Source: Anaeromyxobacter terrae | GTDB taxonomy: Bacteria; Myxococcota; Myxococcia; Myxococcales; Anaeromyxobacteraceae | Length of the DNA: 64,000 nt | Assembly: GCF_022690685.1 (NCBI RefSeq) | Contig: NZ_JALCYY010000002.1 | Coordinates: 62,001 to 126,000, forward strand | Direction of reading: 5' to 3' | Shown: positions 40,177 through 47,071 of the stretch, piece after piece | Numbering within the stretch: position 1 is the first letter of the stretch | Layout of the letters: each line of letters opens with the position of its first letter | The notes under the pieces: generated by a model | Database searches by the model: none | Seen by the model: only the letters and a program-made list of their open reading frames with translations | Told to the model about the DNA's origin: nothing | Translations under genes and position numbers: made by a program

Positions 40177-41436
40177 TCAGCGCCTCGCCGACGGCGCGCC
40201 GCCTCCGGCGCGCTCCTCGTCGGGCACCACCCTGCGGAAGCTGCGCCAGAGCGCGAGGTCGTAGAGGATCTTGAGCCCGCCCGACACGAAGAACGGGACC
40301 GACGCCAGCGCCGCGCTCGCGTAGAGCGGCCCGGCGGCGAGCGGCGCGAGGGCGGCGCCGATCGTGCGCGCGATGCCGGTCACGCCCGCCGCCGCGGAGC
40401 GCTCGTCGGGCTCCACGACCGCCATCGTGTAGGACTGCCGCGTCGGCACGTCCATCTGCGAGATGGAGAACCGGACGAGGAGCACGGCGATCGCGAGCGG
40501 CAGCGTCGGCATGAGCGGCACGAGCACGAGGAGCACGTTCGAGGGCAGGTGCGTCAGCACCATCGTGTTCACGAGCCCGATGCGGCGGGCGATCCATGCG
40601 GCGGACAGCGCGGAGATGCCCGCGAGCAGGTTCGCCCCGAAGAAGATCGCGCCGAGCGTCGCCGGCCCGACTCCGAAGCGCGCGTGGAACCACCAGGCGA
40701 CGAAGCTCTGGACCACGAACCCGCCGGCGAACGCGTCGACGGAGAACAGCGCCGAGAGCCGGAGGACGGTGTCGCGCGAGCGGTGCAGCCCGAGGCGAGA
40801 CCGGCGGGGCGCCGCGGGCGCGGTCGGCGCCTCGACCGCGGGCGACAGGCGCGTGAACACCGCGGCGAGCGCCAGCCCCGCCACGCCGTAGCCCGCCATG
40901 ACGGCGCGGTAGCTCGCGAGCGGCGCGACGCCGCGCGCCTGGAGCGCGCCCGCGAGCGCCCCGCCGGCGAGCGCGCCGAGCGCGGTCGCCGCGGCCCCGG
41001 CGAGCTGGTACCACGCGAACGCGGAGGTCCGCCGCTCCGCGGGCAGCTCCTGCGAGAGCGCCGCCTGCTCGACCGCCAGGAACGGGCCGACCTCGTTCCC
41101 CGAGGGGCTCACCACCCCGACCGTCGCCGCGAGGAGGAGGAGCGCGAACGAGGTCGTGGCGGCGAAGACGGCGCCCGCGAGCGCCATGAGGGCGGCGCCA
41201 GCGACGAGCATGCGCCGGCGGCCCCACCGGTCGGCGTGGGTGGTGATCCAGAGCGAGAGCGCCGTGTCGCCGAGCAGCGTCAGCGTGAGGAGCGCACCGA
41301 TCCGCCGCTCGCCGTAGCCCGCCGCGGAGAGGTGGAGCACGAGCACCACCGAGACCAGGCCGTACGCGAAGAGCCTGAGGGAGCGCGACGCGAAGAGGAC
41401 CGGGACGTCGCGCCGGGGCGCCGGGGCGGGCGTCAT
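40177..41436 (-). CDS. Major facilitator superfamily transporter
   Basis: A 419-residue protein with about twelve spans in two halves. The MFS loop 2-3 motif is present as DRWGRRRMLVAG, and the central loop is charged. Drug or metabolite export is possible; substrate unknown. The ATG at 41436 overlaps the stop of the DUF3037 gene as ATGA, so the transporter is probably translated with DUF3037 and the HipA-like kinase. An upstream start at 41508 would overlap that gene by 76 bases and is unlikely. Confidence 0.87.
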   Translation of the reverse strand: MTPAPAPRRDVPVLFASRSLRLFAYGLVSVVLVLHLSAAGYGERRIGALLTLTLLGDTALSLWITTHADRWGRRRMLVAGAALMALAGAVFAATTSFALLLLAATVGVVSPSGNEVGPFLAVEQAALSQELPAERRTSAFAWYQLAGAAATALGALAGGALAGALQARGVAPLASYRAVMAGYGVAGLALAAVFTRLSPAVEAPTAPAAPRRSRLGLHRSRDTVLRLSALFSVDAFAGGFVVQSFVAWWFHARFGVGPATLGAIFFGANLLAGISALSAAWIARRIGLVNTMVLTHLPSNVLLVLVPLMPTLPLAIAVLLVRFSISQMDVPTRQSYTMAVVEPDERSAAAGVTGIARTIGAALAPLAAGPLYASAALASVPFFVSGGLKILYDLALWRSFRRVVPDEERAGGGAPSARR

Positions 41437-41837
41437 GGCGCGGGAGGCGCGGGCTGCCGCACCATGCGATCGAGGAGCTTCTCGAGCGCGCGCGCGGGGT
41501 CCACGCACGTGCCCGAGTGCACCGGGCCGACCTGGATGACGGTGCTCCGCGGCGCGACGAGCCAGTGGAAGCGCTCCCGGAGCGAGAGCCGGCCGATGGG
41601 CCCGCTCCCCTCCCCGCCCGCGGCGACGCGCGACAGCGCGGCGAGGTGCTCCTCGACGAGCGGGAGGTCCACGTCCGGGAAGAGGGCGCGGAGGCGCGTG
41701 CGGTCGAGCTCGACGCGCGCGCCGAGGAAGTCCTGCTCGAGGCAGAAGAGGACCACGCCCGCGTTCACGAACTCCTCGCGCTCCACGCGCGGGACGACGC
41801 GGACGATCGCATAGTCAAACGAGCAGTGCGCGGGCAC
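41433..41837 (-). CDS. DUF3037-family protein
   Basis: The 134-residue protein has the DUF3037 features FDYAIVRVVPRVEREEFVNAGVVLFCLEQDFLGARVELD and a C-terminal SGTCVDPARALEKLLDRMV. Function unknown. The gene overlaps the 3' end of the HipA-like kinase gene by 23 bases and the MFS gene by 4, an arrangement suggesting co-expression. In other genomes DUF3037 genes also often neighbour HipA-like kinases (established context, mechanism unknown). Confidence 0.85.
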   Translation of the reverse strand: MPAHCSFDYAIVRVVPRVEREEFVNAGVVLFCLEQDFLGARVELDRTRLRALFPDVDLPLVEEHLAALSRVAAGGEGSGPIGRLSLRERFHWLVAPRSTVIQVGPVHSGTCVDPARALEKLLDRMVRQPAPPAP

Positions 41838-42594
41838 GTTCCGCCTCCTCCACGAAGAGCTCGGCCGCCGCGAGGCGGCGCTCGAGGAGCCGCACGTACG
41901 CCGCGCGGTGCTCCGCGATCGAGGCGAAGCGCGGCTCCCCGTCGAGCCACGCGTCGGGCACCTCCGCCACGGCGCGCGCGACGGCGCCTCCCCCGAGCCT
42001 CGCCGCGAGGCGCTCGCCGGCGGCGGGGATCTCTCCCGCCCACGGCAGGAGCACGTGATCCTTCACCGCGCGAAAGGGCGTGAGCGCCGGGTCCGGCGTG
42101 TCTGGCCAGGCGTGGTGGAAGTAGAGGGACGCGCCGTGGTCGATGAGCCACAGCCGCCGGTGCCAGCAGAGGAGGTTGGAGTTCCGCGCGGTGCGATCGA
42201 CGTTCGTCACGAGCGCGTCGAAGAACACGACCTCCGACGCCTCCGCGGAGGAGGGCGGCGGGCCCGCGACCGGATCGAACGTGGCGCTGCCGGGCAGGTA
42301 GTCGAGGCCGACGTTCGCGCCGACGCTCGCCTTCAGGAGATCGCGGATCTCCTCGTCCGGCTCGTTCCGCCCGAGCTCCGGTCCGACCTCGAGCCGGACG
42401 AGCTCGGGCACGGGAAGCCCCGCCGCGCGCGCGAGCTCGCCCGCGATCACCTCCGCGACGAGCGCCTTCGGCCCCTGCCCCGCGCCCCGGAACTTCGCGA
42501 CGTAGAGGCCGTCGTCGTCGCCCTCGACGATGGCCGGGAGCGAGCCGCCCTCGCGCAGCGGCGTCACGTAGCGGGTGGCGGTGACGGTCCTCAT
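41815..42594 (-). CDS. HipA-like kinase domain protein
   Basis: A 259-residue protein with a compact HipA-type kinase fold: a nucleotide-binding lysine in LYVAKFRGAGQG, an E in VAEVIAGELARAAGLPVPE, the catalytic loop FFDALVTNVDRTARNSNLL and metal-binding LIDHG. It is much shorter than canonical HipA (about 440 residues) and lacks its N-terminal subdomain and a HipB-type DNA-binding partner. The family phosphorylates proteins, for instance tRNA synthetases in true HipA; targets here are unknown. First gene of the three-gene unit with DUF3037 and MFS. Confidence 0.83.
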   Translation of the reverse strand: MRTVTATRYVTPLREGGSLPAIVEGDDDGLYVAKFRGAGQGPKALVAEVIAGELARAAGLPVPELVRLEVGPELGRNEPDEEIRDLLKASVGANVGLDYLPGSATFDPVAGPPPSSAEASEVVFFDALVTNVDRTARNSNLLCWHRRLWLIDHGASLYFHHAWPDTPDPALTPFRAVKDHVLLPWAGEIPAAGERLAARLGGGAVARAVAEVPDAWLDGEPRFASIAEHRAAYVRLLERRLAAAELFVEEAERARALLV

Positions 42595-42794
42595 CCGTGC
42601 AGGTTACCGCGGCAGGGAGGCGCCCGCGACCGTGCGGCGATCGCTGCCTCCCCGGCCGGCTCCCGCTCCGCCGCGCGACAAGGAACCACCCTTGCCTCGG
42701 CGTGACGAGCGCTTATGCGTGGATCGAGGTTCACTTCGAGCGGCCCGCTCGGACGGCTCTGCAAGGTGCTCCCGCGCCGCGACGGGAGACACCG

Positions 42795-46984: not shown

Positions 46985-47071
<87 letters not shown>

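Follow-up and report, generated by a model that had tools for sequence, protein, structure and literature searches.

The 64,000-nucleotide (nt) stretch of the Anaeromyxobacter terrae genome analyzed here (assembly GCF_022690685.1, contig NZ_JALCYY010000002.1, positions 62,001 to 126,000; hereafter the window) carries on its minus strand a gene for a small HipA_2-family kinase whose 3′ end overlaps a gene for a DUF3037 protein. We give roughly even chances to the reading that these genes form a kinase-inhibitor module homologous to HipAD, a toxin-antitoxin system of phage defense, but belonging to a separate, mostly chromosomal lineage with short DUF3037 proteins, in which the kinase would be toxic. 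This reading draws support from the kinship of both genes with those of HipAD and Retron-Sda1, from the conservation of putative active-site residues, and from a pairing that is fixed and a ribosome-binding site that lies within the kinase gene. The two genes also occur together in 82 of 84 kinase-bearing Myxococcota genomes and in six of six sampled cyanobacterial ones, and both are absent from one genome of the window's genus. The kinase-DUF3037 pairing and its interpretation as a toxin-antitoxin system are already published (PMC12548924, PMC13092281; these two papers, PMC10627512, and PMC6711988 are cited from excerpts).

The kinase-DUF3037 unit

41815..42594, minus strand: HipA_2-family mini-kinase of 259 amino acids (aa), gene 1 of the pair (Pfam HipA_2, PF20613, E 9e-17; PADLOC PDC-M66A, E 3.9e-23)
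41433..41837, minus strand: DUF3037 protein of 134 aa, in the short form that lacks a C-terminal extension; putative antitoxin-like inhibitor (Pfam PF11236, E 1e-45, 118 of 118 positions)
41815..41837, minus strand: 23-nt overlap of the kinase 3′ end and the DUF3037 5′ end (from open reading frame [ORF] coordinates)
41844..41849, minus strand: Shine-Dalgarno (SD) sequence AGGAGG of the DUF3037 gene, within kinase Glu-Glu-Ala codons, 6 nt before the GTG start
42535..42552, minus strand: putative Gly-rich nucleotide loop EGGSLP, residues 15-20 (invariant columns; named by analogy with HipA and HipT, PMC10627512)
42181..42204, minus strand: putative catalytic loop NVDRTARN, with N131, D133, R134, and N138 (all four invariant in 68 rows)
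42133..42144, minus strand: putative metal-binding IDHG motif, with D152 (invariant in 68 rows)

The original prediction, made from the sequence alone, had described a 259-residue kinase with HipA-type motifs, and this description was borne out by the HipA_2 match and by the invariance, in a 68-row alignment, of K34, E48, N131, D133, R134, N138, and D152, putative catalytic residues assigned their roles from the analogy to protein kinases. Within the EGGSLP loop, E15, G16, S18, and P20 were invariant in 65 short-form rows; the surrounding residues 11-20 were modeled by AlphaFold2 at low confidence (mean predicted local distance difference test, pLDDT, of 69). By analogy with Ser150 of HipA, S18 is a candidate for autophosphorylation. 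The kinase also matched the Pfam family PI3_PI4_kinase weakly (E 0.031, under the family cut-off). A match to the NCBIfam model TIGR03843, the SCO1664 family, lay far under its cut-off (E 0.098); the actinobacterial kinase of that family is likewise accompanied by a small conserved DUF neighbor, a possible parallel to the pair in the window.

The DUF3037 protein stops at residue 134 and its match to the PADLOC model PDC-M66B is restricted to positions 3-130 of 281, so it is without the HipD-type C-terminal half. The ORF coordinates confirmed the predicted end-to-end overlaps of the kinase, DUF3037, and transporter genes (23 nt and 4 nt). The unit also appears, as predicted, to be without a HipB-like antitoxin, given that the matches listed for seven scanned proteins of the window include no helix-turn-helix (HTH) or HipB-like family and that no third gene was constant across 80 loci from named genomes.

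Co-occurrence and distribution

A neighborhood survey had been proposed in advance as a check on the pairing, and co-occurrence proved consistent. Among 195 Myxococcota genomes, DUF3037 was found in 84, the kinase in 84, and both in 82, and all 82 pairs were adjacent and on the same strand with the kinase upstream (two tables compared by eye). The two genomes with DUF3037 and no kinase-profile match (G040 and G068) both hold divergent pairs (L020 and L143), and the two with a kinase and no DUF3037 are one in which a contig end cuts the locus (G089) and one with a distant lone kinase (G074; another ORF at that locus resembles adenylylsulfate kinase by eye). In a sample of 146 Cyanobacteria genomes, six carried the kinase, each with an adjoining DUF3037 gene, and one distant DUF3037 was found besides. 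When named genomes were searched with the alignment of short forms, at least 569 relatives were obtained, of which the best 80 by similarity to the window's DUF3037 were kept, a ranking by which these loci favor the short form. At all 80 the kinase lies directly upstream of DUF3037 on the same strand and the DUF3037 protein is at most 156 aa long, with the caveats that the kinase match of L093 is weak (97.9 bits, perhaps a disrupted gene) and that the DUF3037 gene of L023 is cut by a contig end. Since the arrangement recurs in all 80 loci and in 82 of 195 Myxococcota genomes, it is not due to chance, and the kinase and DUF3037 genes are a real two-gene unit.

A single DUF3037 match was present in 82 of the 84 Myxococcota genomes that bear one. 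The exceptions were G142, in which the copy looks divided between two contigs, and G106 of family f4, in which a second, decayed kinase-DUF3037 copy lies in fragments in two frames (L144, G106:C2:7396500-7403500) and an intact copy lies elsewhere. In a set of 60 genomes, DUF3037 was found in eight of nine genomes of the window's genus, 10 of 11 in family f4, and one of 15 from the remaining genera of the window's family; within the window's genus, G003 is without both genes. Some lineages thus keep the pair stably, and in others it is rare or missing.

The 80 loci span Myxococcota, Acidobacteriota, Pseudomonadota, Chloroflexota, Cyanobacteriota, Actinomycetota, Rhodothermota, Thermomicrobiota, and Ignavibacteriota, with two rows unplaced. 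In a tree of the joined proteins the phylum label changed 11 times, against a least possible 8 and a mean of 42.1 after shuffling, counts that over related loci do not represent independent events; the short form has largely been passed on by vertical descent, following host phyla. A locus titled Comamonas sp. KCTC 72670 (L022) carries a pair nearly identical to that of Myxococcus and was placed among Myxococcus, and may come from a mislabeled or contaminated assembly.

This pattern of inheritance bears on a serious rival reading, one that we hold possible if rather doubtful, in which the kinase is a non-toxic housekeeping enzyme with DUF3037 as its obligate subunit, substrate adaptor, or substrate, engaged in constitutive signaling or in lipid or metabolic phosphorylation. 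The pair's mostly chromosomal location, its largely vertical transmission, its usual single copy, and the loss of both genes together in G003 all agree with such a role, as does the missing C-terminal tail of DUF3037. Against it stands the frequency of lineages without the pair, since 14 of the 15 genomes in the family's other genera are without DUF3037 and 113 of the 195 Myxococcota genomes are without one or both genes, by which the pair is not generally essential.

A ribosome-binding site within the kinase gene

The kinase and DUF3037 genes overlap with a recurrent geometry that places an SD sequence in the last codons of the kinase. Overlap lengths, which hinge on starts chosen by script (a start codon near the profile match; one kinase received no proper start codon), were 23 nt in 52 of the 80 loci, 14 nt in 16, and 8-26 nt in the remaining 12, and equaled 2 modulo 3 in all 80. 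Script and record annotation disagreed for L101 of the Bacteroidota (35 nt by script, 23 nt as annotated) and for Escherichia phage PhiR5_1 (19 nt by script, 4 nt as annotated).

The full AGGAGG hexamer stood exactly 6 nt upstream of the DUF3037 start in 52 of the 80 loci, compared with a background, at any spacing of 3-10 nt, of 0.14% of 57,662 positions. An SD match of at least 5 nt at suitable spacing preceded DUF3037 in 64 of 80 loci and the kinase, whose count again depends on the choice of start, in 5 of 80, and occurred at 2.2% of the 57,662 positions inside the same genes. None of these SD and overlap counts are of independent events, since related loci share ancestry. The residues encoded by the hexamer differ among the 55 loci that have it in full within 18 nt (EEA in 40, QEA in 9, KEA in 3, QEV in 2, and EEG in 1), and 41 of 46 EEA loci use GAG-GAG, where the Glu codon usage of the individual genes would predict 25.0. 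Because the encoded residues vary and GAG-GAG is in excess, AGGAGG seems to be kept at the level of DNA, as for a ribosome-binding site. The embedded SD would point to the production of more DUF3037 than kinase, as expected of an inhibitor, which favors the module reading and does not prove it.

Inspection by eye upstream of the kinase revealed no motif common through the Anaeromyxobacter or the Myxococcaceae set that might serve as a shared operator. The sequence GCGGTAACCTG immediately precedes the kinase ATG in the window (42595-42610, minus strand) and in two near relatives. No SD was seen upstream of the window's kinase ATG, and a leaderless message is possible.

Relation to HipAD and other known systems

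The window kinase aligned with the annotated HipA toxin of PhiR5_1 at 29% identity over 154 aa (E 5e-13) and the window DUF3037 with the annotated HipD antitoxin of the same phage at 20% over 122 aa (E 1e-9), each as a single comparison. HipAD is a phage-defense toxin-antitoxin system of E. coli prophages, a name given by Brenes and Laub 2025, as cited in PMC13092281, to the system also called DS-6; its second protein, DS-6B, combines DUF3037 with DUF1829, its defense is lost upon mutation of a predicted catalytic residue, and a complex of the two proteins is proposed by AlphaFold3 (PMC13092281). Excerpts of PMC12548924 describe a HipA-like/DUF3037 pair within Retron-Sda1, in which deletion of the kinase ends defense against the phage Bas51, deletion of DUF3037 is toxic, and the retron reverse transcriptase and non-coding RNA are dispensable for defense; the same work reports a strong association of DUF3037 with HipA-like proteins. 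The toxicity of that deletion, in a related operon, also weighs against a housekeeping role. We had considered that the pair in the window might be undescribed and rejected this, the pair being present in PADLOC as the phage-defense candidate PDC-M66 and in both of these papers. The original prediction of a distinct module without HipB accordingly stands as far as the unit is consistent and falls as far as the unit was thought unknown, since it corresponds to PDC-M66, HipAD, and DS-6 and its genomic association had been reported. Its proposal that DUF3037 is the regulator, substrate, or antitoxin of the kinase is likely right in the antitoxin or regulator part, and the substrate option stays within the housekeeping alternative.

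HipAD (DS-6, PDC-M66) shares with the window pair a HipA_2 kinase gene that comes first, a DUF3037 gene that overlaps its end, and the lack of HipB. It differs in its second protein, as HipD of PhiR5_1 is 275 aa long, matches PDC-M66B over positions 6-271, and has a long C-terminal part, whereas the window DUF3037 has 134 aa; it differs also in the overlap, which is 4 nt as annotated in PhiR5_1 and 23 nt in the window. DUF1829 was not found by Pfam in PhiR5_1 HipD. The Retron-Sda1 pair shares the same two domains with the window and differs in being part of a retron operon and in having a DUF3037 whose C-terminal region resembles a retron DNA-binding protein, a region absent from the window protein (PMC12548924). 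HipBA and HipBST share the HipA-superfamily kinase fold, and HipBST resembles the window further in that HipT is short and its inhibitor HipS is a separate small protein (PMC10627512); they differ in that no HipB or HTH gene was found among the scanned window proteins and in that the gene order in the window is kinase, then partner. The main text of a 2021 survey of HipA kinases (PMC8262856) contains no word starting with "DUF." In the literature searched we found nothing on the short chromosomal kinase-DUF3037 form; supplements lay outside the scope of this search, and the neighborhood data of PMC12548924 may well show such loci.

The eukaryotic domain of focadhesin/RST1 is DUF3730. A mention of "DUF3037" for focadhesin/RST1 in an excerpt of PMC6711988 was set aside.

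Short and long forms of DUF3037

In trees of 41 hand-picked rows, which are unrooted and in which several long-form rows have very long branches, one branch parted the short from the long forms, with support of 100/99 in the kinase tree and 98/95 in the DUF3037 tree, and the window fell in the short clade. The habitats of the two forms differ as well. With the window DUF3037 as query, none of 50,697 phage records matched and six of 72,556 plasmid records did (0.13 to 11.9 Mb); in three of these six that were inspected, DUF3037 had 127-142 aa, which places the short form on plasmids as well. In a Leptolyngbya plasmid record, the annotated gene upstream of DUF3037 is just 267 nt long. The window kinase as query matched three phages, whose adjoining DUF3037 proteins had 272-280 aa as measured by script. 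Viral contigs were scanned with patterns built from mostly short forms and with a phage HipA query. The DUF3037 patterns returned 12 loci, all of them long forms (268-295 aa, script-measured), the kinase patterns returned none, and the phage HipA query returned 34, with DUF3037 of 280-286 aa except for one of 154 aa. No member of the short clade was recognized in the phage-record and viral-contig searches, in which pattern scans can miss members. The long forms found here are mostly borne by phages and viral contigs, with two in Myxococcota genomes (G040 and G068; 206 and 269 aa), and short forms are mostly chromosomal, with a few plasmid records. The short-DUF3037 pair is a clade separate from phage-borne HipAD and is mostly chromosomal.

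These results also bear on whether the pair in the window acts, like HipAD, in abortive infection, with infection freeing the kinase and the cell stopping, a reading that we regard as unlikely. It gains from the matches of PDC-M66A and PDC-M66B to both window proteins, from the defense conferred in E. coli by the related HipAD/DS-6 and Retron-Sda1 pairs (PMC13092281, PMC12548924), and from a patchy occurrence between lineages, as in the six of 146 sampled cyanobacterial genomes. It loses from a distribution that largely follows phyla, from the usual single DUF3037 match per genome, from the empty phage search and the viral-contig scans without a short-clade member, and from the neighborhood described below. 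Phage defense is possible, but the distribution leans to a physiological role.

Structure models

The AlphaFold2 model of the kinase was of high overall confidence (pLDDT 92.0, predicted template modeling score, pTM, 0.91). Its top solved structure in VIA-align was CtkA, the Helicobacter pylori mini-kinase (Z 16.6, root-mean-square deviation 3.1, 211 residues, 14% identity), followed at lower Z by type II phosphatidylinositol 4-kinase (PI4K-II, 14.0), Shewanella HipA (4pu4, 11.6), and Legionella HipT (8ezs, 11.3). The likeness to CtkA is one of predicted fold, with no sequence relation shown; a PDB search with the kinase profile, extended to E 1, brought up no CtkA chain, and no convincing sequence relative of the kinase or of DUF3037 was found there. 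The window kinase is predicted to have a HipA-like fold, and its substrate class is unreadable from that fold. The ranking of CtkA and PI4K-II before HipA, together with the weak PI3_PI4_kinase match, would suit the housekeeping alternative.

The DUF3037 model was similarly confident (pLDDT 92.6, pTM 0.86), and its fold relatives reached at best Z 3.2 among the listed matches, with no Foldseek match at E ≤ 0.001. HipS, the counterpart of N-subdomain 1 of HipA, was absent from the listed matches, as were HipB and HipA N-terminal chains, which proves nothing.

Proposed mechanism and evidence against it

Under the kinase-inhibitor reading, the kinase would be made at a low level, and ribosomes finishing its message would load efficiently on DUF3037, which would then be in excess, bind the kinase, and keep it inactive. 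Under a condition in which DUF3037 is lost or the complex weakened, the kinase would be free to phosphorylate a target, resulting in slower growth or altered physiology. Since the window protein lacks the part of HipD that is putatively DNA-binding, translation and binding should be the means of control and not promoter autorepression.

Several points weigh against this reading. The identity of the window pair to HipAD is low, and with no clear counterpart among solved structures the DUF3037 model does not reveal how it would inhibit; the kinase model, by Z nearer to CtkA and PI4K-II than to HipA, would allow for a lipid or other target. The SD pattern equally suits any two subunits needed in unequal amounts, and 9 of the 80 loci are without an SD match of at least 4 nt upstream of DUF3037. 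The lone kinase of G074 (L141, G074:C235) is a distant HipA_2 kinase with no DUF3037 detectable in 3.9 kb of a 6.9-kb contig, and it suggests, short as the contig is, that not every HipA_2 kinase of this kind need have a DUF3037 partner. Lastly, the short form was not recognized in the phage and viral searches, and it mostly tracks the phyla of its hosts, an unusual behavior among toxin-antitoxin genes.

Genomic neighborhood

40177..41436, minus strand: major facilitator superfamily (MFS) transporter, a neighbor outside the unit (MFS_1, E 1e-29; 4-nt overlap with DUF3037)

The original prediction had coupled this transporter to the kinase and DUF3037, and the survey did not uphold it. The coordinates assigned in that prediction, 41433-42594, take in the two genes of the pair and exclude the transporter. 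An MFS gene adjoins the pair in three of eight pair-bearing genomes of the family (the window genome, G000, and G005 and G007, which share the gene order), was not found within the 12-kb stretches around the pair in G001, G002, G004, G006, and G009, and is present without the pair in G003; G008, on a contig of 3.6 kb, is not among the eight. The overlap in the window and the shared order in G005 and G007 are what speaks for a three-gene unit with the transporter as the output or target of the kinase. Considering its absence near the pair in five of the eight genomes, its presence alone in G003, and the want of any constant neighbor in the 80 named loci, such a unit is very improbable, and we rejected it as mostly refuted by the neighborhood survey. 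A conserved third partner of any other kind was likewise rejected, since the largest neighbor clusters cover 11 of the 80 loci; two of these 11-locus clusters are from Myxococcota save the Comamonas row, and one is spread over four phyla.

Ninety-four neighboring ORFs, chosen by a crude coding score with no control set, comprised mixed metabolic and signaling families and matched 46 PADLOC families at E 1e-5. Among the commonest 25 of these, which were inspected, the most frequent was subtilase (4 of 94), and single members matched the PD-T4-6, mad6, and RtcR models. We read this as no obvious defense island around the pair.

Elsewhere in the window, at 46985-47070, a GC-rich repeat (frames SGSGSG or DPDPDP) has many dispersed matches in G003 and G005 and the most in G007.

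Implications

HipAD is known as a prophage defense pair, and the related but distinct clade described here is mostly chromosomal, lacks the half of HipD that is putatively DNA-binding, and has a conserved device for translational coupling. We tentatively suggest that the short pair may be a housekeeping module of growth or signaling control in several phyla, inherited mainly vertically, in which the SD in the last codons of the kinase sets the stoichiometry, and that phage HipAD may have derived from it for defense, acquiring mobility and a C-terminal tail, with the direction of the short-to-long change left free by unrooted trees. The pair is open to genetic testing, as the short form is present in a Myxococcus xanthus genome (L027). 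If DUF3037 alone silences the kinase, the short form would be a minimal system for DUF3037 inhibition of HipA_2 kinases and would inform the role of these kinases outside phage defense.

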